Part shown: positions 2,800 to 49,888 of the stretch, piece by piece | How positions within the stretch are numbered: the stretch's first letter is position 1 | How the letters are laid out: every line of letters starts with the position of its first letter | From: a virus | Direction: 5' to 3' (one strand) | Virus record (IMG/VR): IMGVR_UViG_3300018416_000023 | Location: 1 to 51,125 of that record | DNA: 51,125 nt | Position numbers and translations under genes: made by a program | The notes under the pieces: generated by a model | What the model was told of the DNA's origin: nothing | What the model saw: the letters and a program-made list of their open reading frames with translations, nothing else | The model's database searches: none

Positions 2800-3615
2800 T
2801 TAACCCATCATGTCCATGACTGGCATTTCAAAATTCAGTCGGGACTCTTCTTCTAATCTTGTAATCTCTTCTTGTGCTTCCTGTTTCATTTGAGACCCAT
2901 CTAATGTTACACCCCCAGGCAACTGTATACCTTGGAATTTAGAAAGGTTTTCACCCCATTGATACTTGACTAATGCAGTGCAATATTTTTTCAACCACAT
3001 ATCATTGTAAATATCAGTGAAGTCTGTTGGGTCTAGTTTTCTATAACACTCGATAATGATATACTCATCTGCATTTATATTACGAGTGTTCATATCAAGA
3101 TACAATCTATTCATATGTGTATTATATCTGATAGGTTGTTGACCAACAAGCATTTGGTCTAACAAACTGATATGTTGTTGTATCATTGAGTATTGTAGAA
3201 TGTTTGTAGATGTTAAATCATAGATATCATTCAATCTTAGTTGATATCTAAGGTCAAACATGTTAAGATTGTGTTTGTCGTTGAACGGGAATATGTTTAT
3301 AACTGATAATACATATTCAGGTAAGACAATATAATTGTTTTGTTGTTTAAAAGTTTCATCAGTATACGCATGAGTTCCCGCTGCACTTTCAGTGAAGTCT
3401 TCATCACCTCTCATTGCAGTTAATTTATCTGACGTAAGTTGATGTTTGAGATACATTTTGATAGAACCATCATAATGATACTCACGGAAATATTGTAAAC
3501 CTTCGTCTATTCTGTCGTCAAATTGGTCGTCATCGACATTGATTTCAAGAACAGGGGCACCAAGTTTTCTCTTGATGTATTCTTTTAATCCTGCTTTGCT
3601 GTTTGGTTCTGCCAT
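2800..3615 (-). CDS. gp13: Neck protein gp13
   Basis: The portal-adjacent neck protein needed to complete the head. The N-terminal stretch AGLKEYIKRKLGAPV (8-22), followed by DDQFDDRIDEGLQYFREYHY, is the hallmark of gp13 across T4-like phages. The 271-residue length is close to T4's 309. The start is fixed by AGGAGA eight bases before the ATG. A perfect late box (TATAAATA) lies just upstream, and its predicted start point would leave a 13-base leader that still contains the whole AGGAGA. The gene leads the neck/terminase operon 13-14-15-16-17. Confidence 0.93.
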   Translation of the reverse strand: MAEPNSKAGLKEYIKRKLGAPVLEINVDDDQFDDRIDEGLQYFREYHYDGSIKMYLKHQLTSDKLTAMRGDEDFTESAAGTHAYTDETFKQQNNYIVLPEYVLSVINIFPFNDKHNLNMFDLRYQLRLNDIYDLTSTNILQYSMIQQHISLLDQMLVGQQPIRYNTHMNRLYLDMNTRNINADEYIIIECYRKLDPTDFTDIYNDMWLKKYCTALVKYQWGENLSKFQGIQLPGGVTLDGSQMKQEAQEEITRLEEESRLNFEMPVMDMMG

Positions 3616-3633: not shown

Positions 3634-3641
3634 TATTTATA
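3634..3641 (-). promoter_or_regulatory. Late promoter box before gp13
   Basis: The minus strand reads TATAAATA, a perfect T4-type late promoter element recognised by the phage sigma (gp55 in T4). By T4 geometry transcription would start near 3628 and give a 13-base leader carrying AGGAGA. The box is inferred to drive the neck/terminase operon. Confidence 0.8.
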
Positions 3642-3653
3642 CGTTTTTTGAAC

Positions 3654-3914
3654 CTATTCGAAGTATGTCTTAGTTTGAAGTTTGTCGATTTTCTCGTCTA
3701 TTCTCTGAATAGAGTTAAGAATTCTTTCGAAATCTTGTTCGACTTGGTCACGTGTTACGTAATCTTTAGCGATTTCTTCTCTTGTTTTATTAATAAGAAT
3801 GTCGATACGTTTCTGTTCTGCTAGAAGAGACCTCACAAGAAATCCTGCTGGAACCACTATGAGTGTGATAATAATATCCCAAAGTAAATGAGGTTGTAAA
3901 GTTATTTCTTCCAT
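3654..3914 (-). CDS. Small membrane-anchored coiled-coil protein
   Basis: An unrecognised 86-residue protein. Residues about 9-30 (LLWDIIITLIVVPAGFLVRS) form one hydrophobic membrane segment with few charges before it. The rest is a charged amphipathic helix (EQKRIDILINKTREEIAKD, then QVEQDFERILNSIQRIDEKI) predicted to be a coiled coil facing one side of the membrane. One anchor plus coiled coil recalls spanin, holin-regulator or tail-anchor proteins, but nothing decides between these. It has its own late-box arrangement with the ATG exactly five bases after the box and no Shine-Dalgarno sequence, so a leaderless late message is likely. It lies between the oxygenase cluster and gp13. Confidence 0.7.
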   Translation of the reverse strand: MEEITLQPHLLWDIIITLIVVPAGFLVRSLLAEQKRIDILINKTREEIAKDYVTRDQVEQDFERILNSIQRIDEKIDKLQTKTYFE

Positions 3915-3919
3915 ACAAC

Positions 3920-3927
3920 TATTTAGA
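3920..3927 (-). promoter_or_regulatory. Late promoter box (TCTAAATA), leaderless geometry
   Basis: The minus strand reads TCTAAATA, then GTTGT, then ATG at 3914. The five-base spacer places the predicted start point on the A of the start codon. The stop codon of the upstream oxygenase gene lies inside the box. Confidence 0.65.
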
Positions 3928-4624
3928 AGATTGGGTTCCCTCTCTCGTCCAAATCAAAGACAAATTCATCAGGATTGTAATTTTCTATTTCACCAGCATT
4001 TGCAGTAGGTGTATCATAGTGCATTTCTATATTGAATGATACACTATACCTATCCTTTTTAGTAGGATTAGGTTCTACCATATGCATAAGTCCACTAGGA
4101 AACAATACAAGTTCTCCACTTTTTGGGTCAAAGTCCCAACTTGTAGCACCTCTTGGAGAGTGTGGAAAGTCTGCAACTACCTTTGCATGTGTATCAACTG
4201 CTGTAAAACATCCTTCGTCACCATCTGCATGAATATAGAATACACCACTATACCAACAACCATTGTGTAAGTGTGGTTTGTTCCATGCAAGGAAATCGTT
4301 TATGTTTGCCCAACAATTACCTAATCTCATATGTGCGATTTGTGGATTCAAACCATGAAAAGGAAACACTTCATCATAAAATAAGTGTTCAATTCTATTG
4401 ATTAGTTTTTGAAATATCGGAGAGGACTCACAACCATCTTTAGATTGCCAACCAGTGTATGCATTTGAGAGTTGTCTACCCACTGGGTCTCTTTTTCTCA
4501 TTGCATCCATTTCATCTTTTAACATACCCAAGTATTCTTCAGAGACACCTCTACTATCATCCAATCCTTCTTGTAAAAGATTTCTATGAAATACGTGTGT
4601 TGGAAATAATAATCTAACTGCCAT
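3923..4624 (-). CDS. 2OG-Fe(II) oxygenase family protein (TIGR02466-like)
   Basis: A putative non-haem iron, 2-oxoglutarate-dependent dioxygenase of the kind common in marine phages. The sequence shows the family's second half: NKPHLHNGCWYSGVFYIH around 115-132 (iron-binding His and core strand), GELVLFPSGLMHMVEPN around 170-186 (distal His), then a basic residue in DRYSVSFNIE (about 189-198) that would bind the 2OG carboxylate. The start at 4624 is chosen over an in-frame TTG at 4723 because AAGGAG lies eight bases before the ATG, giving 233 residues. It overlaps the upstream gene by 11 bases. The substrate is unknown. A neighbouring second oxygenase and Pro-rich virion proteins make protein hydroxylation a reasonable guess. 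Confidence 0.8.
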   Translation of the reverse strand: MAVRLLFPTHVFHRNLLQEGLDDSRGVSEEYLGMLKDEMDAMRKRDPVGRQLSNAYTGWQSKDGCESSPIFQKLINRIEHLFYDEVFPFHGLNPQIAHMRLGNCWANINDFLAWNKPHLHNGCWYSGVFYIHADGDEGCFTAVDTHAKVVADFPHSPRGATSWDFDPKSGELVLFPSGLMHMVEPNPTKKDRYSVSFNIEMHYDTPTANAGEIENYNPDEFVFDLDERGNPIF

Positions 4625-5468
4625 CTTCTTCTCCTTGGTGGAAAGGACATTCGGGTGGTGGACTCTCTTCATTAAACATTTTACCTTTAGGTTTCCAATA
4701 TCCCTTTCCTCTATATGGCCCAAAGTTTCTTACAGTCTCCTCTTCCATTAATTGTCCCCATTCTTGCATCGATTTACTCGTAGGTGTGTCTTCAAACTCT
4801 GAGGAACCTGTCCCACGATTATCTGTCCATGACTTATGTGTCTTAACTGTATAAGTTGCATTCCATGTTTCTCTTTTGAATGGAATGATTTGCACTAGAG
4901 GTGTTCCTGATTTGATAACAAACGAATGGTCTACCTTAGGATAAAAAATTATTTGTGCATTGTCCATACCAACATTAAAGGTGTCGGTATCAATTATACC
5001 TTGCCATGTTGCAAAATATTTATTCTGAAATAAGAAAGGGTCTAGATAAAAACAAGAATAGCCTGGAGGTGTTTTTACATTCCATGCATTTCTCATTTTA
5101 AATGCATCCTTTATCTGACTTCCTTTACCTAAGTATTCGAATGCATCTGCAAATTGAGTTGTAGGATGACTACGTGAATGATAATCTTGACCACTAGGGT
5201 CGAATGCTGCAACTTTAGTTGTCTCTCCATCATCTTCAGGATTAGTTCCATTGATAACTTCTATATCTCTATTTGCAGTTATAATCCATCCACTCTTTAA
5301 CCAATCATCCATTGCTGGACAAGCACGAATTGTTTGTTGAACTTGTCCCTTGTTTAATTCTGCAACTTTAATATCTTTCCACCATTCAGGAACAATATTC
5401 TTCGCAAGAACTGGTTTAAAGTTCTTTACGGTGTCTGCATCATACGTGTGAAAATCTATCGTTGGCAT
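4614..5468 (-). CDS. DUF6065-like protein, possibly cupin-like
   Basis: A 284-residue protein of unknown function. The stretch VKTPPGYSCFYLDPF, then GIIDTDTFNVGMDNAQIIFY, and later SGTPLVQIIPFKRETW match my recollection of the DUF6065 family pattern (PPGYS...GivDtD...GtPlvqviPf+R). Alternating strands and Gly turns suggest a double-stranded beta-helix. I see no clear HxD...H iron triad. The start is the ATG at 5468, with GAGGAAG upstream. The frame also continues to a TTG at 5489 with no better signal. It overlaps the upstream oxygenase by 29 bases and the downstream one by 11, so all three are probably translated as a unit and may act together. An aromatic-rich N-terminus (EWWKDI) is also typical of the family. 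Confidence 0.6.
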   Translation of the reverse strand: MPTIDFHTYDADTVKNFKPVLAKNIVPEWWKDIKVAELNKGQVQQTIRACPAMDDWLKSGWIITANRDIEVINGTNPEDDGETTKVAAFDPSGQDYHSRSHPTTQFADAFEYLGKGSQIKDAFKMRNAWNVKTPPGYSCFYLDPFLFQNKYFATWQGIIDTDTFNVGMDNAQIIFYPKVDHSFVIKSGTPLVQIIPFKRETWNATYTVKTHKSWTDNRGTGSSEFEDTPTSKSMQEWGQLMEEETVRNFGPYRGKGYWKPKGKMFNEESPPPECPFHQGEEDGS

Positions 5469-6147
5469 AAAAAAATTCTTCCTCGTCAACTAGTCTTACT
5501 TCGTCTCCTCTTAAAACTAATGACCTTCTATCTATATATCTTGCAGACGGATGAGGTGCATCAGCACCATGTGGAATCCTACCATCAAACATAATTAATC
5601 TGTTTGGTTTAAATTCTATTTCTGCTATTTGATGATTCTTGACATGTTCATCACGTCCATCAATTCCTCTTTGATGTTCATCGTATAATCTCAATGAACC
5701 ACCCCACTTTGGATTCCAATATCTATTTGGATAATAAAGAAATGATATATTCCATTCATCATGGTCTTCACAATCCGAATGAGTAGTTCCTTGTAAACCT
5801 TGAGTTTGAGAATTAAGTCCCATATACTGAAATCTTACCCACTTAAAACCAAACTCAGTTTGAACTCTTCTATTGAAATACTTTGCAAATAAAACATCCG
5901 ACTGAGACATCCCGTCTTCTATTCTTCCATCACCTCTAAAATATGTTGCACCCCAAAACTGGTGATGAGGTAATCCAGTTGGACTGTCAGCATTTACTTG
6001 ATTAGTCTTTGACCATATACTACTTTCAGAAATCTGTTTATCAAAATGATGCCAAAGTTCAGGTGCAAGATAATCATCTAAAACATAGATGTCTTTTAAC
6101 GGCAACTCTTTTATTTTAAAGGGTTTGTCTAGATAGACGACTTCCAT
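5440..6147 (-). CDS. Prolyl-4-hydroxylase-like 2OG-Fe(II) oxygenase
   Basis: A 235-residue protein with the complete catalytic signature of 2OG-Fe(II) dioxygenases of the P4H/EGL-9 type. The HxD pair is in GTTHSDCED (about 121-129), the core strands in WNISFLYYPNRYWNPKWGG and GSLRLYD, the distal His in DGRIPHGAD (about 189-196), and the 2OG-binding Arg region in RRSLVLRG (about 204-211). This is the classical layout in which a small domain hydroxylates peptidyl proline or another side chain. The upstream gene ends 3 bases before its ATG and it overlaps the next by 29 bases. The actual substrate cannot be read from the sequence. The adjacent proline-rich repeat proteins are the obvious candidates (inference). 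Confidence 0.85.
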   Translation of the reverse strand: MEVVYLDKPFKIKELPLKDIYVLDDYLAPELWHHFDKQISESSIWSKTNQVNADSPTGLPHHQFWGATYFRGDGRIEDGMSQSDVLFAKYFNRRVQTEFGFKWVRFQYMGLNSQTQGLQGTTHSDCEDHDEWNISFLYYPNRYWNPKWGGSLRLYDEHQRGIDGRDEHVKNHQIAEIEFKPNRLIMFDGRIPHGADAPHPSARYIDRRSLVLRGDEVRLVDEEEFFYANDRFSHV

Positions 6148-6150
6148 TCC

Positions 6151-6708
6151 CTACCTCTCATGGTCGGGTAATGTCGTTGGAACTGGTAATTGATTTATAT
6201 AATCATCTAATGGTTTTAAATGGTCTTCTCTAGTTGCAAAAATTTCATTAACAAGTCCATCATAAATTACATATTGTGCATCAGCATATTCCATTACACG
6301 TCTTGCATTTGACCTATAAGGATGGTTAGAACCTTCCCTACCAGCAAATGTAACTTCAGTTAAATCATCAAAACCATACTTTTCAGTAAACTCTTTGATG
6401 TTTAATTTTACATTTTGATTCAAATCTGAAACAAATTGATTGTTAAGTGTTACACCGATTGGTGGTTCTGAGTTTGCAATGTATTGTTCAATTAATGTTT
6501 TTTCGCCATCTGTTAGAGGTCTTTTTTCGTTATCATCCCAACATTTGCTATAGTCATAATTTTCAATGACAACTTCAATATCATCGTATACCAATACGTC
6601 ATAATCAAAACCTAATTCAGGTTTGTCTACGTTTTCGTAATCCCACTCTAAACCGTTTGGTTTTCTGATAATTAATTGATTATTTTCTGTATAGATTAAT
6701 CTGTTCAT
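6151..6708 (-). CDS. Unknown acidic protein, possibly fibre-associated
   Basis: An unrecognised 185-residue acidic protein. The N-terminal half is rich in strands and Asp/Glu/Tyr (DVLVYDDIEVVIENYDYSK, about 37-55). A helix with KRPLTDGEKTLIEQYIAN follows (about 62-79). The C-terminal half ends in a pattern (IFATREDHLKPLDDYINQ, then PVPTTLPDHER) that recalls small phage proteins encoded beside tail-fibre genes, such as fibre chaperones. That resemblance is only in style and I would not name a family. It lies 3 bases before the P4H-like gene and 22 after the glycosyltransferase gene, so it shares their transcript. Confidence 0.55.
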   Translation of the reverse strand: MNRLIYTENNQLIIRKPNGLEWDYENVDKPELGFDYDVLVYDDIEVVIENYDYSKCWDDNEKRPLTDGEKTLIEQYIANSEPPIGVTLNNQFVSDLNQNVKLNIKEFTEKYGFDDLTEVTFAGREGSNHPYRSNARRVMEYADAQYVIYDGLVNEIFATREDHLKPLDDYINQLPVPTTLPDHER

Positions 6709-6730
6709 ACTTTATTATACCTCAATTTAC

Positions 6731-8314
6731 CTAAAAAGGCAACATTGTTTTAAATCTTTTATAGTGTTCTAAATTATTTATGTGACTAGAATCCATCCCA
6801 TCTATCCACGGCCCACCTCTTGTATAATGAATACCAGTGTAATCCCACTTCACTTCAGGGTCATCGTATCCTTCCACAAATATATATTTCTCAGGAATCT
6901 TACTTATTTTATCAGTCCATTCAAACTGATGTAATTGAGCACCAGTCCAAGTGTTTACAACTTCAGGTGTCAACTTCTTACAATCGGGATGACCATTATT
7001 AAAGAACATCATAGATGACCAAAGTTTACATGGATAGTCTATATTCACTTCACCATCAAACTTAGTTTCATCATGTTTCATTTGTGGATATTGAATACAT
7101 GCAACTGCATCATCAGGATTTAGGTAATAAAACATGGTCAAAGGATTCTTCTTAAATATGAAATCATCATCGATGAACAAACTAAACCCTTCATAGTTTT
7201 CTAAGTAGGGGATTAGAAATCTGCTGTATGTAAACCATGTAGATTGATTCTCATAAGGTCTAGTATATTCGGGAATCTTAGATACATCTAAAAATTTTAT
7301 CTCAGGGTTGAATGTGCTGTAGTCTACTAAATGACCACCACCAATAGACTTTTTAATAGTAAACTCTAAAGACCTCTTACATATTTCTTCTAGATTATTA
7401 TGATTACTATCGTATCCTATGTAAATGTTTAAGGGTTTACCTTTTGCAAGTCTTGTAACCTTTTCATTATGAGCATATACATATTTTCTAAAGTCTATAC
7501 TACTCATATCACATTGAAATTCTATAGTTTGATTAGTCCAACACAATGACATATTATCATGAGCAGAATTTTCTTTATTGTTTACTAACACTTTCCAACA
7601 TTCGATAGTTTCATCAAGTGTCATAGATTTTACATGTTCTAATTGATTGAAAGTATCCCATATCAACATTTCCATGTTTGGGTCTTCCATTTCTTCAAAG
7701 ACACCTGACCTTACACTGCCTGGATGAACTCTTAATTGTGTTTTACCACCAGCGTTTGTAGTGTAACCTTGAATAGGATTCCACAATCCATCTTTCTGAA
7801 TACTTTGAACTAACCAGTGTGCTTTTGCAGAGTGATAATACATTGACTGAACACTCTGTTCAAAATTATCTGCAACAAAATCACCTTCATTTAATTCTTC
7901 TCTAATAATATCTACCATGGTAACTTGTTCACCATCTAGATTAGAAGTTTTGAATTTTGCTGGAACTACTGAACCTGGCATATCAGGGTCGGGTTGACCT
8001 GAAGTGTATACTTGTGGTAGAAATCTATGATATGTATTACACTGAAACTGAAGACCGTTAAATGTGATGAGTTTATCATCTCGTCTCATTTGTTCAATGT
8101 CACCCCACTTTACCAAACGAAGTTTAGGCATTTGATTGAACATCCACTCCCACATTTTATATGTTTCTGAATCTTTTGTGAAAGTGTTTAGATTGAGAGA
8201 ACCTAAATGAAATTGTTCTGCAGAGTGTCTATGTTGATTTTCTGCAGACGTTAAATCAGGAAATCCATCGGGAAATTTGCCAATGAGTTCCTCTAAGGTT
8301 TTGATTTTATCCAT
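6731..8314 (-). CDS. GT8-like glycosyltransferase with ParB-like N-terminal half
   Basis: A two-part protein of 527 residues. The C-terminal half (about 290-527) looks like a GT-A glycosyltransferase of the GT8-like group: KPLNIYIGYDSNHNN (about 292-306) gives the nucleotide-sugar strand, and LFIDDDFIFKKNP (about 378-390) gives the DxD metal site after a helix of the expected type. The N-terminal half includes KAHWLVQSIQKDGLWNPIQG and then LRVHPGSVR near 195-200, a spacing that resembles ParB/sulfiredoxin-fold domains (helix, GxxxPI, then a basic xGxxR loop). The same HPG-S/T-VR motif appears in the 258-residue protein at 41879-42655. The start has GGAG upstream and a late-box-like CTAAATAA inside a hairpin at 8325-8343. 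The acceptor is unknown, and no signal peptide is present, so it acts in the cytoplasm. Confidence 0.72.
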   Translation of the reverse strand: MDKIKTLEELIGKFPDGFPDLTSAENQHRHSAEQFHLGSLNLNTFTKDSETYKMWEWMFNQMPKLRLVKWGDIEQMRRDDKLITFNGLQFQCNTYHRFLPQVYTSGQPDPDMPGSVVPAKFKTSNLDGEQVTMVDIIREELNEGDFVADNFEQSVQSMYYHSAKAHWLVQSIQKDGLWNPIQGYTTNAGGKTQLRVHPGSVRSGVFEEMEDPNMEMLIWDTFNQLEHVKSMTLDETIECWKVLVNNKENSAHDNMSLCWTNQTIEFQCDMSSIDFRKYVYAHNEKVTRLAKGKPLNIYIGYDSNHNNLEEICKRSLEFTIKKSIGGGHLVDYSTFNPEIKFLDVSKIPEYTRPYENQSTWFTYSRFLIPYLENYEGFSLFIDDDFIFKKNPLTMFYYLNPDDAVACIQYPQMKHDETKFDGEVNIDYPCKLWSSMMFFNNGHPDCKKLTPEVVNTWTGAQLHQFEWTDKISKIPEKYIFVEGYDDPEVKWDYTGIHYTRGGPWIDGMDSSHINNLEHYKRFKTMLPF

Positions 8315-8324
8315 AATATACTCC

Positions 8325-8343
8325 GTTCACTTATTTAGTGAAC
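8325..8343 (-). promoter_or_regulatory. Hairpin with embedded late-promoter-like box
   Basis: A perfect inverted repeat (GTTCACT, five-base loop, AGTGAAC) between the stop of the 276-residue repeat protein and the glycosyltransferase ATG. On the minus strand it contains CTAAATAA, one or two changes from the late box. It may act as both an end and a start of transcripts. No U-tract follows, so terminator function is uncertain. Confidence 0.45.
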
Positions 8344-8347
8344 TATT

Positions 8348-9178
8348 TTAAGATGATACTGGAGTTCCAGGCCACGATTGTGTTAAGGAACCATCCCATC
8401 TAATCACTGGTGTTCTACCTTGTCTTGCGTATGTAGCAGGTTGTCTGTTTTGATACGTGAAAGGATTCTGACCTTGTCTTGCATAAGTCGAAGGTTGTCT
8501 GTTCTGATATGTGAACGGTGTTCTACCTTGTCTATCATATGTGACTGGTTGTCTATGTTGATAAGTAAACGGTGTTTGAGCGTTTCTTATGTTAGGTTCT
8601 TGACCATTCACTGGGTTTCTATAGGTAAACGGTGACCTATGTTGATATGTGAATGGTGTTCGACCCGTTCTTTGATACGTAACAGGTTGTCTATGTTGAT
8701 ACGTAAACGGTGTTTGTCTATTACGTATATTTGGTTCTTGACCATTCACTGGATTTCTGTATGTAAACGGTGACCTATGTTGATACGTAAACGGAACCCT
8801 ATATGATACTGGATTCTGATAAATTACAGGTTGTCTGTTCTGATATGTGAACGGTGCCTGTGCGTTTTTAATTGTTGGTTGTCTACCATTTACAGGGTTT
8901 CTATAAGTAAACGGTGACCTAAAGTTATATGTAAACGGAACCCTATATGATACTGGGTTTCTGTATGTGAATGGAGACCTAAAGTTATATGTTGAAGGTT
9001 GTCTCGCATTCGCAATGTATGGAACCCTATAAGATGCTTGATAAGTGAATGGGTTTCTTGCGTTTGCAATATATGGAACCCTATAAGATGCTTGATAGGT
9101 AAACGGATTTCTAGCATTCCCGATTACAGGTTGTCTAGCATTTCCTATTACTGGTTGTCTTGCGTTACCTATTGCCAT
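8348..9178 (-). CDS. Pro/Tyr/Arg-rich repeat protein (family member 1)
   Basis: A 276-residue protein made almost wholly of degenerate 8-9-residue units of the form R-[QST]-P-x-[TI]-Y-[QN]-x (for example RQPVTYQH, RSPFTYRN, RTPFTYQN) joined by NPVNGQEPNIRN and RNPVSYRVP spacers. It uses very few residue types (P, Y, F, T, Q, N, A, R, S, V, I, G). It has almost no Asp, Glu, Lys, Leu, Met or Cys, so it is strongly basic. The C-terminus (VIRWDGSLTQSWPGTP) is the only non-repetitive part. Three relatives occur at 9484, 17212 and 17990. The location in the fibre block and the late-gene setting suggest a virion adhesin or fibre, but I know of no named family. AGGA precedes the ATG. Confidence 0.7.
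   Translation of the reverse strand: MAIGNARQPVIGNARQPVIGNARNPFTYQASYRVPYIANARNPFTYQASYRVPYIANARQPSTYNFRSPFTYRNPVSYRVPFTYNFRSPFTYRNPVNGRQPTIKNAQAPFTYQNRQPVIYQNPVSYRVPFTYQHRSPFTYRNPVNGQEPNIRNRQTPFTYQHRQPVTYQRTGRTPFTYQHRSPFTYRNPVNGQEPNIRNAQTPFTYQHRQPVTYDRQGRTPFTYQNRQPSTYARQGQNPFTYQNRQPATYARQGRTPVIRWDGSLTQSWPGTPVSS
8405..9175 (-). repeat. Degenerate 24-27-base coding repeats
   Basis: In-frame imperfect tandem repeats encoding the R-x-P-x-x-Y-x-x units. Blocks such as gtaaacggtgacctatgttg recur several times here and again in 9930-10700, 17395-17970 and 18430-19020. Unit length stays a multiple of three, so copy-number change would keep the frame open. Confidence 0.8.
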
Positions 9179-9193
9179 TTTTTATTCCTATGT

Positions 9194-9472
9194 TTATATT
9201 GCAACTCCAGTTTCAGGGTCTCTAAACCATTTTTCCATATTGTAATAATTTAAAATCCCTTGTCCTTGAGCATCTAAATGAGCCTCACATGCAGTTGCAT
9301 CAAAAACTCCACTGACAACAAAATTGTCCTTTAGCGTTTTTACTTCAATAGTTCTTGTTTCTCCCAAAAACTCGTAACTAAATTGTTTTATTGCCCACTC
9401 TACTGAATCGTTTACTTGTATATCGTCTCGGGGTTCTCCCGTATAAGTTGTTGTTTCGAATGTTAATGACAT
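9194..9472 (-). CDS. Small unknown protein between repeat genes
   Basis: An unrecognised 92-residue acidic protein, predicted to be beta-rich in the first two thirds (SLTFETTTYTGEP, then TIEVKTLKDNFVVSGVFD) with a short helical end (GILNYYNMEKWFRDPETG). It contains one Cys and no membrane segment. It lies between two repeat-protein genes, 15 bases before the start of the 276-residue one and 11 after the stop of the 454-residue one. A small, ordered, acidic partner of two basic repetitive proteins could be a capping subunit or chaperone, but this is inferred from context only. A weak TTAAATA box is 12 bases upstream of the ATG. Confidence 0.55.
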   Translation of the reverse strand: MSLTFETTTYTGEPRDDIQVNDSVEWAIKQFSYEFLGETRTIEVKTLKDNFVVSGVFDATACEAHLDAQGQGILNYYNMEKWFRDPETGVAI

Positions 9473-9483
9473 AATGTTAATAC

Positions 9484-9915
9484 CTATTTAATAAATTTAA
9501 TTGTAAAATCACCACCAGTTGGGTTGAAGGGACTAGGCCCTGTTGTTACCCATGTCGGTGCTGGGAAACTCATACTATGAGCTGCATTTGAATATGTTGC
9601 TAATGGGAAAGCGGTCTCCGATAATCCAGGCGAACTAATTTTAATTTTAGTAAACCCAGCACTTACTAATGGAGTTGGCCCTCCTGGCGATGCAAGGAAA
9701 ACATTCCAATTAGCGGCTATCATTGCAGGATATGATGGCCCATTTTTCCCTACCATTATTTTATTTGAACCACTGAATAAAGCTCCAGCAGTTGGTGATT
9801 GAGGACTTGAACCTAATCCTGATGGATTACCATAAGGAACACCATCAGTAAATCCTATGTAATATGCATATCCACTTGCTGAATAAAGAGTCATTTGTCC
9901 TGATAAAGTATAATG
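9484..9915 (-). repeat. Long dispersed repeat, copy A (tip-domain DNA)
   Basis: About 430 bases encoding the C-terminal domain of the 454-residue protein. They match 17990-18425 at roughly 88% by eye, in the same orientation and about 8.5 kb apart. Recombination between the copies would remove or exchange the fibre genes between them. Confidence 0.85.
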
Positions 9916-10848
9916 AACTGAGTCAAATGTATACGTATACGGTGACCTAAAACTGTAAGTAAACGGACTTCTAAATGAATACGTAAACGGTTGTCTTGCG
10001 TTAGCAGGATATGTAGCAGGATACCTTGCATTATACGTGAATGGTTGTCTCGCATTAGCAGGGTATGTAGCAGGATATCTTGCGTTGTATGTAAACGGTG
10101 CCTGTGCGTTCTTAATTGTAGGTTGTCTTCCGTTTACTGGATTTCTATATCCAGCAGGTTGTTGAGCATTTCTAATATTAGGTTGTTGAGCATTTACAGG
10201 GTTTCTATATGTAAACGGTGACCTAAAGTTATATGTCGAAGGTTGTCTAGCATTTGCAATATAAGGACTTTGTGCGCTACTTGGATTTCTATAAGCAGCA
10301 GGTTGTTGTGCATTCCTAATATTTGGTTCTTGAGCACTTACTGGATTCTGATATGTAAATGGTGACCTATGTTGATAGGTTGACGGTTGTCTCGCATTCG
10401 CAATATAAGGACTCTGAGCATTCGCAATATACGGATACGGTTGTTGAGCATTTCTTATATTTGGTTCTTGAGCACTTACTGGATTCTGATATGTAAATGG
10501 TGACCTATGTTGATACGTAGAAGGTTGTCTTGCCTGTGCAATGTATGGACTCTGAGCATTTGCGATATAAGGATAAGGTTGCTGTGCATCTGCGATATAT
10601 GGGGTCTGAGCATTAGCAATATATGGATAAGGTTGCTGTGCGTTAGCGATATAAGGTGTTTGACTATTCGCAATATAAGGATACGGTTGTTGAACACTTT
10701 GTTGACCTGATGCATCGTTCCACCCTGTAGGTGTTTTAACATAGATTTGGTCAACTGCTTTCCATGTGGATGATGCAGTTTTAACCCATGCACCCTGAGT
10801 TGAATTCCAACCAGCGGGTGTTTTAACTTTTTGTGAACCTGAAGCCAT
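9484..10848 (-). CDS. Pro/Tyr/Asn repeat protein with C-terminal globular domain (family member 2)
   Basis: A 454-residue protein in three parts. Residues 1-50 are a small domain with repeated K-TP-GWN and V-K-A/T motifs (VKTPAGWNS, YVKTPTGWND). Residues about 50-305 are repeats mixing PYPYIANAQ/PYIANAQ units with RQPSTYQHRSPFTYQ units. Residues about 310-454 form a Gly/Ser/Pro-rich domain beginning YTLSGQMTLYSASGYAYYIG and ending GGDFTIKFIK. That last domain is about 88% identical at DNA level by eye to the end of the gene at 17990, showing recent duplication or exchange. The layout (head, long repeat stalk, globular tip) resembles a fibre or adhesin. Its receptor is unknown. Confidence 0.75.
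   Translation of the reverse strand: MASGSQKVKTPAGWNSTQGAWVKTASSTWKAVDQIYVKTPTGWNDASGQQSVQQPYPYIANSQTPYIANAQQPYPYIANAQTPYIADAQQPYPYIANAQSPYIAQARQPSTYQHRSPFTYQNPVSAQEPNIRNAQQPYPYIANAQSPYIANARQPSTYQHRSPFTYQNPVSAQEPNIRNAQQPAAYRNPSSAQSPYIANARQPSTYNFRSPFTYRNPVNAQQPNIRNAQQPAGYRNPVNGRQPTIKNAQAPFTYNARYPATYPANARQPFTYNARYPATYPANARQPFTYSFRSPFTYSFRSPYTYTFDSVHYTLSGQMTLYSASGYAYYIGFTDGVPYGNPSGLGSSPQSPTAGALFSGSNKIMVGKNGPSYPAMIAANWNVFLASPGGPTPLVSAGFTKIKISSPGLSETAFPLATYSNAAHSMSFPAPTWVTTGPSPFNPTGGDFTIKFIK
9930..10700 (-). repeat. Degenerate coding repeats of the 454-residue protein
   Basis: An array of PYPYIANAQ-type and R-x-P-x-x-Y-type units. Longer super-units are visible: the block running from RQPSTYQHRSPFTYQ through SAQEPNIRNAQQP is repeated nearly unchanged, about 40 residues apart, which shows local duplication. 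Confidence 0.8.
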
Positions 10849-13551: not shown

Positions 13552-13559
13552 TATTTATA
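13552..13559 (-). promoter_or_regulatory. Late promoter box, leaderless geometry
   Basis: The minus strand reads TATAAATAGTATTATGG: box, five bases, ATG. The same 17 bases occur before the gp25 gene. A terminator hairpin ends about ten bases upstream, so this gene is a separate late unit. Confidence 0.75.
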
Positions 13560-17211: not shown

Positions 17212-17979
17212 TTACTTACTGAATTGAGCAGTAGGAACCGATTGGTGAATCTTTTCTACTGTTCCACTATCATTTGTGTAAACTTCGTCAACTTTTCTAA
17301 CAGTTCCACCGTCATTTACATATACACCTTTAACTTTTGCAACTGGGCCAATAGGTCTTGTAGAAGTGTAATTGACCTGATATGTATAAGGTTGTGCAAT
17401 AGTGTAAGGAACCTGATAAGGGTTTTGATATATCGAAGGTTGTCTTGCTTGTGCAATATACGGTGTCTGTCTATTAACTGGATTCTGATATATAACTGGT
17501 TGTCTGTTTTGATACGTAAACGGTGTTCTACCAGTTACCTGACGTGTATAAGGTGCCTGATGTTGATAGGTTGACGGTTGTTGTCCTTGTCTTGCATACG
17601 TATTAGGTTGTCTATTTTGATATGTGAACGGTGCCTGTGCATTTGCTATATACGGATACGGTTGTTGACCATTAGCAATGTATGGATACGGTTGTTGAGC
17701 ATTAGCAGGATACGGTTGTCTTCCTTGTGCAATATAAGGTGATTGATAACTTGCTGGTTGTTGAGAAGTTATCTGATAACTTGCAATGTAAGGAACCCTA
17801 TACGATACTGGGTTTCTATATCCAGCAGGTTGTCTTGCCTGATATGTAGTCGGATGTTGATACGTATGTTGATATATCACTGGTTGTCTATTCTGATACG
17901 TAGAAGGTATCTGATTTTGATATATCACTGGATGCTGATAAGTAGCAGGATATGGTGTTTGTTTTTGTCCTATTGCCAT
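17212..17979 (-). CDS. Pro/Tyr repeat protein (family member 3)
   Basis: A 255-residue protein. Residues about 5-195 are R-x-P-x-x-Y and PYPYIANAQ-type repeats (YQNRQPVIYQ, QQPYPYIANGQQPYPYIANA). The C-terminal 55 residues are a separate module with a duplicated half: VKGVYVNDGGTVRKVDEVYT, then NDSGTVEKIHQSVP. That module contains the acidic residues the repeats lack. The start has GGAGG close by. The gene lies 10 bases after the stop of member 4, so the two are probably co-expressed. Likely a virion fibre or adhesin. The family is unknown to me. Confidence 0.68.
   Translation of the reverse strand: MAIGQKQTPYPATYQHPVIYQNQIPSTYQNRQPVIYQHTYQHPTTYQARQPAGYRNPVSYRVPYIASYQITSQQPASYQSPYIAQGRQPYPANAQQPYPYIANGQQPYPYIANAQAPFTYQNRQPNTYARQGQQPSTYQHQAPYTRQVTGRTPFTYQNRQPVIYQNPVNRQTPYIAQARQPSIYQNPYQVPYTIAQPYTYQVNYTSTRPIGPVAKVKGVYVNDGGTVRKVDEVYTNDSGTVEKIHQSVPTAQFSK
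17395..17970 (-). repeat. Degenerate coding repeats of the 255-residue protein
   Basis: In-frame units of 24-30 bases shared with the arrays at 8405, 9930 and 18430. PYPYIANGQQ/PYPYIANAQ copies are adjacent and nearly identical. Confidence 0.8.
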
Positions 17980-17989
17980 TCTCTACCTC

Positions 17990-18425
17990 CTACTTAATAA
18001 ATTTAATTGTAAAATCACCACCAGTTGGGTTGAAGGGGCTAGACCCTGTTGTTACCCATGTTGGTGCTGGAAAACTCATACTATGAGATGCATTTGAATA
18101 TGTCGCTAATGGAAATGCTGTTTCTGATAAATTAGGTGAACTGATTTTAACCTTAGTAAATCCAGCATCTACCAATGGCATTGGCCCTCCTGGCGATGCA
18201 AGGAAAACACTCCAATTAGAAGCTATCATTGCAGAATATGATGGCCCATTTTTCCCTACCATTATTGCATTTGAACCACTGAATAAAGCTCCAAGAGTTG
18301 GTGATTGTGGTGAACTACCTAATCCTGCTGGATTACCATAAGGAACACCATCAGTAAATCCTATGTAATATGCATATCCACTTGCTGAATATAAAGACAT
18401 TATTCCTGATAAAGTGTAAAATTCT
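17990..18425 (-). repeat. Long dispersed repeat, copy B (tip-domain DNA)
   Basis: The partner of 9484-9915 in direct orientation, about 88% identical by eye, with runs of 20 or more unbroken matching bases. It encodes the C-terminal domain of the 367-residue protein. Confidence 0.85.
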
Positions 18426-19093
18426 AAATCATATGTGTAAGTGGATGGGACACTTGCAATATATGTTGCTGTTTGTTGAGCAGATGCTTCATATGGAGTT
18501 TGTCTATTTGCAATATATGGACTTTGTTTGTTTGCTGGTTGTTGAGCAGTATACTGAGCATTTGCGATATATGGAACACGATAACCAACAGGGTTTCTAT
18601 AAGCAGCAGGTTGTCTTGCCTGATATGTAGCAGGGTGTTGATAAGTTACCTGATATATTACAGGTTGTCTACTATTATATGTAAATGGACTTTGTGCCTG
18701 ATATGTAAATGGACTTTGACCTTGTCTTGCGTATGTAAAAGGTGACCTACCTTGTCTTGCATAAGTCGAAGGTTGTCTTGCCTGTGCAATATAAGGTGTT
18801 TGACTATTCGCAATATACGGATAAGGTGTTTGTGCATTTGCAATGAACGGATAGTTCGCATTCACTGGATGTGGATACGGTTGTTGTGCATTTGCAATAT
18901 ACGGACTTTGTGCGTTTACTGGATTTCTATAAGTCGAAGGTTGTCTGTTCTGATATGTAAAAGGTGTTTGTGCATTTGCAATCGCTTGTCTTGTTGCTTG
19001 AACGTTTGCAGGCGTTTGACCAATAGCAGGTTGTTGTGCTTGGTATGGTTGTTGGAACGTAGTTCCTATATTTACATAGATTTCATCAGACAT
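17990..19093 (-). CDS. Pro/Tyr repeat protein with C-terminal globular domain (family member 4)
   Basis: A 367-residue protein. After a short start (MSDEIYVNIGTTF), residues about 15-220 are repeats (QARQPSTYARQGRSPFTYAR, ANAQQPYPHPVNANYPFIAN). Residues about 224-367 are the same globular domain as in the 454-residue protein (YTLSGIMSLYSASGYAYYIG to GGDFTIKFIK). The two domains differ by few residues, while the repeat stalks differ widely in order and number. That is the expected picture if the stalk varies by recombination and the tip is fixed or exchanged as a unit. The start overlaps no other gene. The stop of the upstream fibre gene is one base away. Confidence 0.75.
   Translation of the reverse strand: MSDEIYVNIGTTFQQPYQAQQPAIGQTPANVQATRQAIANAQTPFTYQNRQPSTYRNPVNAQSPYIANAQQPYPHPVNANYPFIANAQTPYPYIANSQTPYIAQARQPSTYARQGRSPFTYARQGQSPFTYQAQSPFTYNSRQPVIYQVTYQHPATYQARQPAAYRNPVGYRVPYIANAQYTAQQPANKQSPYIANRQTPYEASAQQTATYIASVPSTYTYDLEFYTLSGIMSLYSASGYAYYIGFTDGVPYGNPAGLGSSPQSPTLGALFSGSNAIMVGKNGPSYSAMIASNWSVFLASPGGPMPLVDAGFTKVKISSPNLSETAFPLATYSNASHSMSFPAPTWVTTGSSPFNPTGGDFTIKFIK
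18430..19020 (-). repeat. Degenerate coding repeats of the 367-residue protein
   Basis: The same unit types as the other three arrays, with tandem SPFTYARQGQ/SPFTYQAQ copies around 18660-18770. Confidence 0.8.
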
Positions 19094-40166: not shown

Positions 40167-40595
40167 TCATACAGTGGTAAGTTTAAACCGAAGAACTATA
40201 AAAAATACAAAGGAGACCCTACAAAGATATTCTATAGGTCACTTTGGGAACGTAGATTCATGGTTTATTGCGATAACAACGATAAAATTATTGAATGGGG
40301 CAGTGAAACAATAATCATTCCTTATGTATCTCCCGTGGACAAAAGACCTCATAGATACTTTCCCGACTTCTATATAAAATATGTCAACTCAAAAGGTCAA
40401 GTGATTAGAGAAGTCATAGAAGTCAAACCAAAACGACAACTCAGTCCACCCAAAGAACCAAAGAGAAGAACAAAGAGTTGGTTAAACGAAGTGAGAACTT
40501 ATATGGTCAATCAAGCAAAGTTCAAAGCTGCAGATGAATACTGTAAGGATAGAAAATACAGTTTTAGAATATTGACCGAAGACCACCTAACATGA
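40164..40595 (+). CDS. gp4: Head completion protein gp4
   Basis: A 143-residue protein of the T4 gp4 (50/65) family, required to finish DNA-filled heads, with a nuclease-like fold. The start MSYSGKFKPKNYKKYKGDPT and SLWERRFMVYCD (26-37) are family-typical. A PD-(D/E)XK pattern is present: E48, P67-D68 in RYFPDFYI, and E86-V-K88 in VIEVKPK. It may trim or hold DNA ends at the portal. It leads the rightward operon and overlaps the HAD gene by 4 bases (ATGA). Confidence 0.9.
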   Translation: MSYSGKFKPKNYKKYKGDPTKIFYRSLWERRFMVYCDNNDKIIEWGSETIIIPYVSPVDKRPHRYFPDFYIKYVNSKGQVIREVIEVKPKRQLSPPKEPKRRTKSWLNEVRTYMVNQAKFKAADEYCKDRKYSFRILTEDHLT

Positions 40596-41215
40596 AAAAA
40601 CTAATTGCATTTGATTTAGATGGAGTTTTAATCAACTCCATTAAGAATATGGAACACTCATGGAGTGTAGTATGTTCTCAACATAACATTAATGTCCCCT
40701 TTTCCGAATATAAAAAAGGTATAGGAAAACCATTCTTTGATATACTGGACGAGTTAGGACTAACTGACTCACAACAACAAATCAAAAATACTTATGATGA
40801 AGCATCAAACATGATTCTTGACGAAGTTGAGATATATGAGGGTGCAATTGAAACACTTGAAGAGATAAAACGAAAAGGATACAAGATTGCAATATGCACA
40901 TCGAAGGATATAACAAGAGTTAAGAAGGTTATTGCAAGTCTTATACTAGACGGAAAGAAATTTCCTAAGTTTGATTACGTCTGTTCACCTAAACAAGGTC
41001 TTAGAGGAAAACCTGCCCCTGACCAACTACTAAATACTATCGCATTCTGTAATGTAGACCCACACGAAACATACTATGTGGGTGATATGGAATCAGATAT
41101 GTATTGTGCAAACAGAGCAGGTGTAGATTTTATACATGCAGAATATGGTTATGGAGAAGTTGAGTGCGAAGTCTCAGTGAAGTCGATAAAAAATCTAATC
41201 TCGTTGTTGGATTAA
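40592..41215 (+). CDS. HAD-superfamily phosphatase
   Basis: A 207-residue HAD hydrolase with all four motifs: FDLDGVLINS (D8 nucleophile, D10), CTSKD with T103, GKPAPDQ with K140, and VGDMESDM with D165 and D169. The cap region (about 15-85) is helical, as in phosphoglycolate phosphatase or beta-phosphoglucomutase-like enzymes. Its gene overlaps the KdsB-like gene by 52 bases, so a role in making the same sugar (Kdo-8-phosphate or a nonulosonate-9-phosphate phosphatase) is plausible. KdsC lacks a cap while this enzyme has one, so nucleotidase or another phosphatase activity is equally possible. The substrate cannot be read from sequence. Confidence 0.8.
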   Translation: MKKLIAFDLDGVLINSIKNMEHSWSVVCSQHNINVPFSEYKKGIGKPFFDILDELGLTDSQQQIKNTYDEASNMILDEVEIYEGAIETLEEIKRKGYKIAICTSKDITRVKKVIASLILDGKKFPKFDYVCSPKQGLRGKPAPDQLLNTIAFCNVDPHETYYVGDMESDMYCANRAGVDFIHAEYGYGEVECEVSVKSIKNLISLLD

Positions 41216-41892
41216 TACCAGCAAGGTGGAAATCCACACGATTTGAAGGTAAACCCCTTGAACTTATAAATGGTATACCCATGATTCAAAGGGTTTACAA
41301 TCAAGCAAGTCTTGCAGAGACACTAGACACGATTGTTGTTTTGACGGATGACCATCGCATCTCCACATATTGTTCGCAAAATCAAATTAGATGCATTGTA
41401 ATTGACACTGAGTGTCGAACTGGAACTGATAGATGTGCAAAAGTATTAGATTTGATTGATGGTCATACCTTTGTAAACATACAAGGTGACGAACCAATCA
41501 TTGACCCTGAGAATATTGATGCAGTTGTCCGTGGATTGGATGATAATTTTAGTGTATCGAATGCATACACTAGGATACAAGAAGATTTTAAGTCGTTTGA
41601 TGAGAATGTTGTGAAGGTTTCACTCGGAAAAGACAACACAGCACTCTATTATTCACGAAAAAACATAAGTGAGTATCAACAATTGGGTCTTTACGCATTC
41701 AAAAGACACATGTTAGGTCTATTTCCCAACTTAATAGTAGGTGAAAACGAAAAAAGAGAGAAAGTAGAGATGTTAAGATACGTTGAGAACGGTTTTTATG
41801 TTAAAATGATTGAAGTAAACGATGCTGGACTCTCTGTAGATACTCCCCAAGACCTAAAACGAGTGGAAAAATATCTAAATGCTTTACATTAA
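41164..41892 (+). CDS. kdsB: CMP-Kdo synthetase (KdsB)-like cytidylyltransferase
   Basis: The enzyme couples CTP to a 3-deoxy sugar acid (Kdo in bacteria) to give the CMP-sugar used by transferases. Motifs: GLIPARWKSTRFEGKPL (16-32), TECRTGTDRCAKV (82-94), FVNIQGDEPIIDP (103-115), QLGLYAFKRHML in the middle, and GLSVDTPQDLKRVEKY at the end. These align in order with bacterial KdsB (PAR..STR..GKPL, SGTeR, NvQGDEP, vDTPeDL). At 242 residues the length is normal (about 250). The start is GTG, chosen because GGAG lies seven bases before it and no ATG precedes the first motif. It overlaps its neighbours by 52 and 14 bases. The sugar could be Kdo or another ulosonate. Confidence 0.85.
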   Translation: MRSLSEVDKKSNLVVGLIPARWKSTRFEGKPLELINGIPMIQRVYNQASLAETLDTIVVLTDDHRISTYCSQNQIRCIVIDTECRTGTDRCAKVLDLIDGHTFVNIQGDEPIIDPENIDAVVRGLDDNFSVSNAYTRIQEDFKSFDENVVKVSLGKDNTALYYSRKNISEYQQLGLYAFKRHMLGLFPNLIVGENEKREKVEMLRYVENGFYVKMIEVNDAGLSVDTPQDLKRVEKYLNALH

Positions 41893-42655
41893 CAAAAATA
41901 ACCTCTATCCACTTAAAACTCAGTTCTATGAAGTGTGTCAAGTGTCACAACCAAAGATAATTACACTTGGTGAAGCGAAAAACAAAAATTTCATACCTCC
42001 AAGATTCTTTCAGGTCAACGAAACTGGTTATTGGAGTTGTCATATGTTAAAACACATAGACATAGAACCTGTAACTGCAAAAACTTTTGGTGTTTTAGGT
42101 GGAGAACAACCACACGTCCATATGTTTCAAGCAATCAAGTTAATGTATCTTATACACTGTTTCAATACAGTCGGATTTTATTCATTACCTCAAGCAATAC
42201 TCAAAGATACTGGTGTATGGAAAGTCCATCCAGGCACTGTAAGAGTTAAAGTAAGTATACACACTGAAACTTACGACCAAAAGTTTATCTTTTGGGATAA
42301 AGATAATCTAATAGATTCTCCAGTCATGTCTTTTGATGAATGGTGGGGTGTGTTTAAAGATGTTCCACGAAGAATGTGGACTGATAAACTAGAAAACATT
42401 TTAGAATTACATGTTGAAGAAGATAGAGAAGATTATTATGAATGGAATGAAAGTGTTCCATCCATGTATGGATACAAACGTCCCTACTATCACGGTTCTG
42501 TTCCTGAAGAACTAAAAGATTGTTTCTCGGAATCACCTGATGTGCCTGTGCATGTCGAAGGTGATATTAAAAACAACATGAAACACTTCCTAGATTTCAA
42601 TCCAGTCAACAAATACTTTGAAAATGATAACATAAAAATCTATTGTAAAGTATAA
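41879..42655 (+). CDS. Unknown protein sharing an HPG-S/T-VR motif with the GT8-like enzyme
   Basis: An unrecognised 258-residue protein. Residues about 80-130 hold HMFQAIKLMYLIHCFNTVGF and then GVWKVHPGTVRVKVSIH. The GT8-like protein's N-terminal half has the same helix, then LRVHPGSVR, then an aromatic-Asp pair (IWDTF there, FWDKD here). A ParB/sulfiredoxin-type fold is possible. The C-terminal half is acidic and aromatic (DREDYYEWNESVPSMYGYKR). It overlaps the KdsB-like gene by 14 bases and is probably part of its pathway, perhaps binding a phosphorylated or nucleotide ligand. It has no membrane segment or signal peptide. The stop is inside the next gene's late box. Confidence 0.6.
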   Translation: MLYINKNNLYPLKTQFYEVCQVSQPKIITLGEAKNKNFIPPRFFQVNETGYWSCHMLKHIDIEPVTAKTFGVLGGEQPHVHMFQAIKLMYLIHCFNTVGFYSLPQAILKDTGVWKVHPGTVRVKVSIHTETYDQKFIFWDKDNLIDSPVMSFDEWWGVFKDVPRRMWTDKLENILELHVEEDREDYYEWNESVPSMYGYKRPYYHGSVPEELKDCFSESPDVPVHVEGDIKNNMKHFLDFNPVNKYFENDNIKIYCKV

Positions 42656-49150: not shown

Positions 49151-49888
49151 TTATAATTCAGATTCTAGACCTAAACCTAGAACCCATCTATCTTCGATAT
49201 TGAATCGAGACATAATACTATTATACTCGATTTTATCGAATCCATCAATGGGGTTTTTGAAAAAAACTTCCACTTTTGGATACTCTTTATTTATGTATTC
49301 TAGGAGTGCGATGAATTGTGCTTTTTGCACTTTTCCAACTGCCTGAATACTTCCATAGTTCTCTCTATAGTTGTATTGTCCTTGGAATACATTATTGAGT
49401 TCGTCAAACTGTAGTGAGTCATAACCCACTAAACATATCTTCTCATATCCATGATGAACTGCATAACCTAAGGCATACATTCCTGATAAGAGATTCTTAA
49501 ATGTAGGATGAGGATATGTTATAATGTTTTCACTATACTGATTATTATATCCAGTAAAGTAAAACTTACCGTCTTGTTGTCCTGTTGTAAGTTCTGATTG
49601 TGCAACGAATGAATTACACTCTTCATCACGATACACTTCGATGGGTAAATGAACACCCATCATCATCATGTCCATTGCTTCGATTGGTAATTCATTCCAT
49701 TCACCAACAGACACTTTATTAGTTTTATAATATCCCGACTTTATAATTTCATGTTGAGGCCATACGTCACCACAAAAAACTATGTCGGGAGTGTGAGTAG
49801 TGTAAATCATATTGAATCCCCACCACTCAGGTAAAGATTCTAAATCAACATTCTGTCTTGATGGGCCGTTACCAACTAAGTAGAGCAT
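49151..49888 (-). CDS. GT42 / DUF115-like putative glycosyltransferase
   Basis: A 245-residue protein with the start pattern YLVGNGPSRQ (3-11, GNGPS at 6-10) and LSGMYALGYAVHHGYEKICL (134-152) followed by VGYDS (154-158). Campylobacter-type sialyltransferases (GT42) and the DUF115/MptE-like family share this order: GNGPS loop, then SGxxxxxxAxxxGYxxIxLxGxD. GT42 enzymes use CMP-sugars, and a CMP-Kdo-synthetase-like gene is in the same window. Catalytic residues of GT42 (a His near the C-terminus) are not clearly visible, so a 6-hydroxymethylpterin-type pyrophosphokinase fold cannot be excluded. It lies between gp59 and gp32, which are adjacent in T4, and overlaps gp59 by 13 bases. Confidence 0.6.
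   Translation of the reverse strand: MLYLVGNGPSRQNVDLESLPEWWGFNMIYTTHTPDIVFCGDVWPQHEIIKSGYYKTNKVSVGEWNELPIEAMDMMMMGVHLPIEVYRDEECNSFVAQSELTTGQQDGKFYFTGYNNQYSENIITYPHPTFKNLLSGMYALGYAVHHGYEKICLVGYDSLQFDELNNVFQGQYNYRENYGSIQAVGKVQKAQFIALLEYINKEYPKVEVFFKNPIDGFDKIEYNSIMSRFNIEDRWVLGLGLESEL

Follow-up and report, generated by a model that had tools for sequence, protein, structure and literature searches.

A 2-oxoglutarate oxygenase and glycosyltransferase cassette tied to proline- and tyrosine-rich repeat genes in an uncultured T4-like marine phage

We analysed a 51,125-base IMG/VR record (IMGVR_UViG_3300018416_000023), the whole of which is the window referred to below. It belongs to an uncultured T4-like marine myovirus whose nearest cultured match by the neck protein gp13 is Pelagibacter phage HTVC008M (52% identity). 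Near gp13 the window carries a cassette of five genes encoding a glycosyltransferase (GT), two 2-oxoglutarate (2OG)-Fe(II) oxygenases (P4H and OX5) and two conserved proteins (U185 and DUF), directly downstream of genes for proline- and tyrosine-rich repeat proteins. Linkage to the repeat genes proved strict for GT, U185 and P4H; OX5 and DUF are not exclusive to them. On balance, we lean towards the view that the substrates of the cassette are the repeat proteins whose genes lie directly upstream of it. An earlier note on this DNA had proposed a proline-hydroxylation and glycosylation system acting on virion proteins, and that overall interpretation is partly supported. Every open reading frame (ORF) named there was located where it had been placed. 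The minus-strand order is REP2–U92–REP1–GT–U185–P4H–DUF–OX5–GP86–gp13, and upstream of REP2 in transcription order are a fibre region, REP4 and REP3, and further fibre genes. The features are as follows.

REP2, 9484..10848, minus strand: N-terminal GW/VKT anchor-like domain, Pro/Tyr-rich repeat shaft and a C-terminal domain also found in REP4.
U92, 9194..9472, minus strand: small ORF separating REP2 and REP1, found in some members of the clade but not in all.
REP1, 8348..9178, minus strand: Pro/Tyr-rich repeat protein, nearly all repeat.
GT, 6731..8314, minus strand: predicted GT-A/GT8-like glycosyltransferase (residues ~290–525) with an N-terminal domain without assigned function.
U185, 6151..6708, minus strand: conserved 185-residue protein.
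P4H, 5440..6147, minus strand: P4H/PHD-like 2OG-Fe(II) oxygenase, PF13640.
DUF, 4614..5468, minus strand: conserved protein, phrog_7084; a moderate-confidence model suggests a dUTPase-like β fold.
OX5, 3923..4624, minus strand: second 2OG-Fe(II) oxygenase, PF13759/phrog_81.
GP86, 3654..3914, minus strand: conserved 86-residue protein between the cassette and gp13.
gp13, 2800..3615, minus strand: neck protein and syntenic anchor.
REP3, 17212..17979, minus strand: repeat protein with a C-terminal anchor-like domain, phrog_13729.
REP4, 17990..19093, minus strand: repeat protein whose C-terminal domain is common to REP2.

A repeat gene lies directly upstream of all 87 distinct GT genes that have upstream sequence (85 identified by script and 2 after inspection). 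Two seemingly repeat-less GTs (L196 and L273) were rejected as exceptions, as their start codons are over-extended and REP1 is present upstream. All 80 distinct GTs with at least 6 kb downstream are accompanied by U185, P4H, DUF, OX5, GP86 and gp13. From the repeat side, we tested 50 contigs among the matches listed in a DNA-word scan that is independent of the cassette. P4H is present on 36 of the 50; the other 14 stop short of its expected position and do not count as exceptions, leaving P4H in 36/36 informative repeat-bearing contigs among the matches listed. We looked at 37 sister-group loci of the HTVC008M type whose sequence reaches more than 3 kb beyond gp13 on the upstream side: all lack repeats, GT, U185 and P4H, and so do HTVC008M, Melnitz and Mosig in their neck regions. 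The same 37 loci hold OX5-family genes in 7 cases and a DUF relative in 1. Because relatives without repeats still carry OX5- and DUF-type genes, the tie to the repeats is confined to GT, U185 and P4H. That enzyme and repeat genes belong to a single conserved unit is upheld, and this unit sits in the fibre/neck region. The genome survey suggested by the earlier note bears out co-occurrence for these three genes and not for OX5 and DUF. In a divergent subgroup (L413, 9687–10337; L117 and L130), DUF and OX5 are separated by an additional ORF or a gap, and just one repeat gene is adjacent.

We also compared the distance in repeat vocabulary with gene distance by Spearman correlation across 77 loci, using statistics that, here and below, are not corrected for phylogeny: the coefficients are 0.62 for GT, 0.45 for OX5, 0.43 for P4H and 0.34 for DUF, and 0.28 for gp13, 0.21 for GP86 and 0.15 for U185. 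After GP14 and GP15 were included (60 loci), GT lies above the gp13 and gp14 controls in all bootstraps, P4H in 89% and OX5 in 93%. When upstream fibre genes serve as controls (25 loci), the values are 89% for GT, 52% for P4H and 24% for OX5. Because of these last two values, only the tie between GT and the repeats exceeds linkage, and the P4H signal is inseparable from it.

P4H matches PF13640 in Pfam (1.2e-8, 36.2 bits versus a curated cut-off of 27), as do 40/40 of its homologues at E ≤ 0.01. The complete HxD...H...R signature reported in the earlier note is confirmed: H123-x-D125, H193 and R207-x-S209, corresponding to the HxD...H iron triad and the distal 2OG residue, are invariant across 40 dereplicated homologues. 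Comparison of the P4H family profile with the PDB places prolyl hydroxylases first, with 6t8m at 7e-5 and TPA1 and PHD2 much weaker, and we take these best matches as a lead that P4H may hydroxylate peptidyl proline. Only PF13640, PF13661 and DUF6445 were matched among the P4H homologues; TET_JBP was not. Relatives of P4H are labelled 'DNA endonuclease V' in phrog_274 and in several RefSeq entries (e.g. L498 of S-SSM4 and L411 of S-RIM44). This label looks like a propagated misannotation, because the families matched by P4H and its homologues are those of 2OG oxygenases. OX5, already recognised as a second 2OG oxygenase, is encoded in an ORF at 3923–4723 that matches PF13759 (7.8e-18, 65.2 bits versus a cut-off of 27), and has relatives in the PDB (3bvc and 2rg4). 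Judging by where the homologues start, the likely start codons are the ATG at 4624 for OX5 and the ATG at 5468 for DUF, not the upstream TTG codons.

GT is 527 residues long, and its AlphaFold2 model has a predicted local distance difference test (pLDDT) score of 87. From about residue 290, the model matches GT-A enzymes that include LgtC, glycogenin, UGGT, the PBCV-1 capsid GT (2p73) and the Skp1-pathway galactosyltransferase (6mw5). In the homologue alignment the D382-x-D384 pair is invariant and the HYTRGGPW motif is conserved. Glyco_transf_8 (PF01501) is matched by 26 of 39 GT homologues (best 5.3e-5), the window copy having no match. In agreement with the earlier assignment, the model and the conserved residues support a GT8-like glycosyltransferase with a GT-A fold and DxD motif. 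In Alphaproteobacteria, it is the GT domain alone that is widespread. Full-length GT matches occur in metagenome-assembled genomes (MAGs) labelled 'Sphingobacteriales' or 'Flavobacteriales', on contigs that carry terminase, sheath and neck genes. A bacterial origin of the cassette was rejected, as these contigs bear phage genes; the MAG contigs of this phage clade (L412, L413 and L414) are probably mis-binned, or may hint at Bacteroidota hosts. Elsewhere in the window, a gene at 41879–42655, beside a CMP-sugar synthetase-like gene, shares an HPGxVR-motif region with the N-terminal half of GT (BLASTP 5e-5); we presume this motif to recall ParB/Srx-type folds.

DUF had been described as DUF6065-like, and the profile test rejects this: DUF6065 (PF19541) has no match in the window even at E ≤ 10 and matches 1 of 43 DUF homologues, at E = 0.048. 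The DUF model is of moderate confidence (pLDDT 68) and most resembles dUTPases (E 9.6e-4). None of the 43 homologues matches the dUTPase family PF00692, and hhalign against the HF2 viral dUTPase gives a probability of 0.1. Membership of the dUTPase family was therefore rejected, the fold resemblance remaining a lead. In haloarchaeal tailed viruses, DUF relatives adjoin thymidylate synthase or sit near ribonucleotide reductase genes. In cyanophage S-RIM44, a DUF relative adjoins 2OG oxygenases and tryptophan halogenases; the stretch from the tail-fibre genes to gp13 (L411, 6732–14420) contains two such halogenases, the DUF relative, the oxygenases and a ferrochelatase-like gene. U185 is part of the cluster and was absent from the earlier note. 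We found no credible relative of it in Pfam, PHROGs or cultured phages, and its PDB matches were rejected as noise.

The four repeat ORFs (8348, 9484, 17212 and 17990) contain 11–13% Pro and 9–13% Tyr, and the regularity of their Pro spacing is far from chance. We measured 12,296 spacings between successive Pro residues in 309 distinct repeat ORFs. Of these, 94.6% are even (chiefly 2, 6, 8 and 10), compared with 46.6% (standard deviation 0.3) in shuffled sequences; the repeat copies are homologous and the spacings are not independent events. Counting each distinct repeat unit once, 88% of the spacings are even, and multiples of three make up 33% of distinct repeat units. Pro recurs every 6–10 residues. 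Odd offsets from Pro are occupied mainly by Tyr, Ala, Ser and Phe, and even offsets by Gln, Arg, Thr, Asn and Ile; Tyr occurs about once per repeat unit. Because the Pro spacings alternate by two residues and Tyr and Phe fall on one face, the shaft is likely β-structured, with two faces. Extensins are polyproline II (PPII) helices with Ser-Hyp runs. The analogy with extensin- or collagen-like fibres does not survive: a PPII extensin or Gly-X-Y collagen shaft was rejected, as the repeats advance in steps of two residues, not three. The repeat proteins probably form the shafts of virion fibres or adhesins, and neighbouring fibre genes match the families 'structural protein', 'tail fiber protein' and 'L-shaped tail fiber protein assembly'. 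In cultured phages the repeat proteins have no DNA match and no credible protein match; weak tblastn matches of REP1 to Pseudomonas and Vibrio look like chance between repetitive sequences.

In the mechanism that we propose, the cassette would be expressed late in infection, and the repeat proteins would be both virion fibre components and cassette substrates. P4H would hydroxylate recurring side chains in the repeats, with Pro as the first candidate, and OX5 would carry out a second oxidation. GT would then glycosylate the hydroxyl so formed, or Tyr or Thr, and U185 and DUF would assist. That P4H acts on Pro in the repeat proteins is a possibility that we hold tentatively, and placement of the sugar on hydroxyproline, which rests on analogy with the Skp1 pathway, seems to us fairly unlikely. 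It is plausible, though unproven, that the repeats are first hydroxylated on Pro and then glycosylated. Glycogenin, a GT8-type enzyme, glycosylates Tyr. Given this precedent and the recurrence of roughly one Tyr in every unit on a single face, Tyr is a serious alternative acceptor. As a model, the Skp1 pathway is nearer than extensin, being cytosolic and using a PHD-type enzyme: in that pathway (DdPhyA/TgPhyA), a cytoplasmic PHD-type oxygenase makes protein hydroxyproline, enabling glycosylation by cytoplasmic glycosyltransferases (PMC7864055). The best PDB match of P4H, 6t8m, comes from the same Skp1 paper, and 6mw5 is among the fold matches of GT. The Skp1 system, however, is eukaryotic, concerns one Pro and is regulatory, whereas here a phage would modify many repeats of a probable structural protein, by a chemistry proposed from genes.

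An exact TATAAATA sequence, resembling a T4-type late promoter, is present at 3634–3641, 19 bases before gp13. Further exact sites at 13552, 28968, 28979, 35600, 40126 and 42651 lie in gene-upstream gaps on the coding strand. As the number of exact sites in the window is not in itself above chance, we infer late expression of the cassette from its position. A late promoter immediately before the cassette was rejected; only one-mismatch sites occur there, at a frequency no more than chance. The window also holds genes for a HAD phosphatase and a CTP_transf_3 (CMP-sugar synthetase-like) protein at 40592–41892, and the phage may therefore make an activated sugar. A protein at 49151–49888 has no Pfam match; its GNGPS start, we presume, recalls DUF115/sialyltransferase-like enzymes.

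Several observations weigh against action of the cassette on the repeats. OX5- and DUF-type genes occur without repeats, as described above, and P4H and OX5 do not rise above the upstream fibre control F136. The surrounding fibre locus is itself conserved in the clade, so co-retention of cassette and repeats is not specific, and the all-or-none pattern may stem from a single gain in one clade. A β-type shaft differs from the usual PPII-like P4H substrate, and the location of the repeat proteins in the virion is one that we infer. The neighbours of DUF in haloviruses point to nucleotide chemistry, at least for the DUF family.

This last point bears on a reading in which the cassette modifies nucleotides or DNA: the oxygenase would hydroxylate a base, GT would glycosylate it and a dUTPase-like DUF would tune the nucleotide pool, the repeats being mere neighbours. 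Oxygenase plus GT is the logic of base J, and TET-linked phage hypermodification is comparable. We keep this reading mainly because of DUF, whose model resembles dUTPases. The model is only moderate, however, the hhalign comparison is negative, and the P4H and OX5 families are PF13640/PF13661 and PF13759 rather than TET_JBP; the closest solved structures to P4H are protein prolyl hydroxylases, and the cassette sits in the fibre–neck region. We consider nucleotide modification improbable. The enzymes could instead act on a host-surface glycan, a lipid or a small molecule, for instance to prevent superinfection. Lipooligosaccharide is a substrate of GT8 enzymes such as LgtC, 2OG oxygenases have many small-molecule substrates, and the window encodes the sugar-activating genes noted above. 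The strict coupling to repeat genes and a repeat vocabulary that follows GT more closely than the linked backbone controls gp13–gp15 make this quite unlikely.

The published views of phage 2OG oxygenases concern 2OG metabolism (PMC3037559) and repair (PMC2984593). As proposed for cyanophages in connection with 2OG and nitrogen stress (PMC3037559), the oxygenases might be metabolic helpers that draw on 2OG during infection, the site being an insertion hotspot beside gp13, and different oxygenase islands do occur upstream of gp13 in Mosig, HTVC008M and S-RIM44. This would leave GT, U185 and the invariant repeat linkage unexplained, and several T4-like phages have no island there at all; we regard it as highly improbable. 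Closer to our own reading, the repeats may be glycosylated with no need for hydroxylation, a GT8-like enzyme acting on Tyr, as glycogenin does, or on Thr, and the oxygenases acting on other residues. The single-faced Tyr of each repeat, the glycogenin match and the strongest co-variation, that of GT, fit this variant, but the linkage of P4H is as strict as that of GT, and we judge the variant somewhat unlikely.

Viral precedents exist for parts of the system that we favour, in which the cassette acts on the repeats. The chlorovirus PBCV-1 encodes a P4H, with evidence for hydroxyproline in viral proteins (Eriksson 1999, cited in PMC9301287). It differs in being an algal virus, and its capsid GT, 2p73, matches the fold of our GT. 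We know of no link between the P4H and GT genes of PBCV-1 and a repeat fibre gene. In mimivirus, a viral hydroxylase and glycosyltransferase are reported to act on collagen-like repeat proteins (PMC9546862); there the product is hydroxylysine of Gly-X-Y collagen, whereas here the register is of two residues and there are no collagen repeats. Plant extensins and hydroxyproline-rich glycoproteins share Pro- and Tyr-rich repeats and the P4H and GT logic, but the even Pro spacings in the window fit a β strand. The 2OG oxygenase islands of T4-like cyanophages and pelagiphages share with our cassette the slot upstream of gp13 and the OX5 family, and in S-RIM44 a DUF relative; GT, U185 and repeat genes were not found there (HTVC008M, Mosig, Melnitz and S-RIM44). 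Many marine T4-like phages have no oxygenase island upstream of gp13.

Phage oxygenases have been called 'cryptic', in an account that mentions collagen-like tail fibres (PMC9301287), and we found nothing specific in the open-access literature on a phage hydroxylation-glycosylation system or on hydroxyproline or glycosylation of phage tails. The role of phage 'prolyl hydroxylases' is unexplained; here P4H-like and OX5 enzymes are strictly linked to a candidate substrate and a sugar transferase. In its boldest form, which we think somewhat unlikely, the phage would hydroxylate and then glycosylate Pro (or Tyr) along β-structured Pro/Tyr-rich shafts, in the manner of mussel adhesives or hydroxyproline glycoproteins, as one version of a wider role for oxygenase/halogenase islands beside the fibre genes of marine T4-like phages. 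If true, this would be, to our knowledge, the first phage cassette for fibre hydroxylation and glycosylation; the oxygenase islands of marine T4-like phages would then seem to act on the virion and not on host metabolism.

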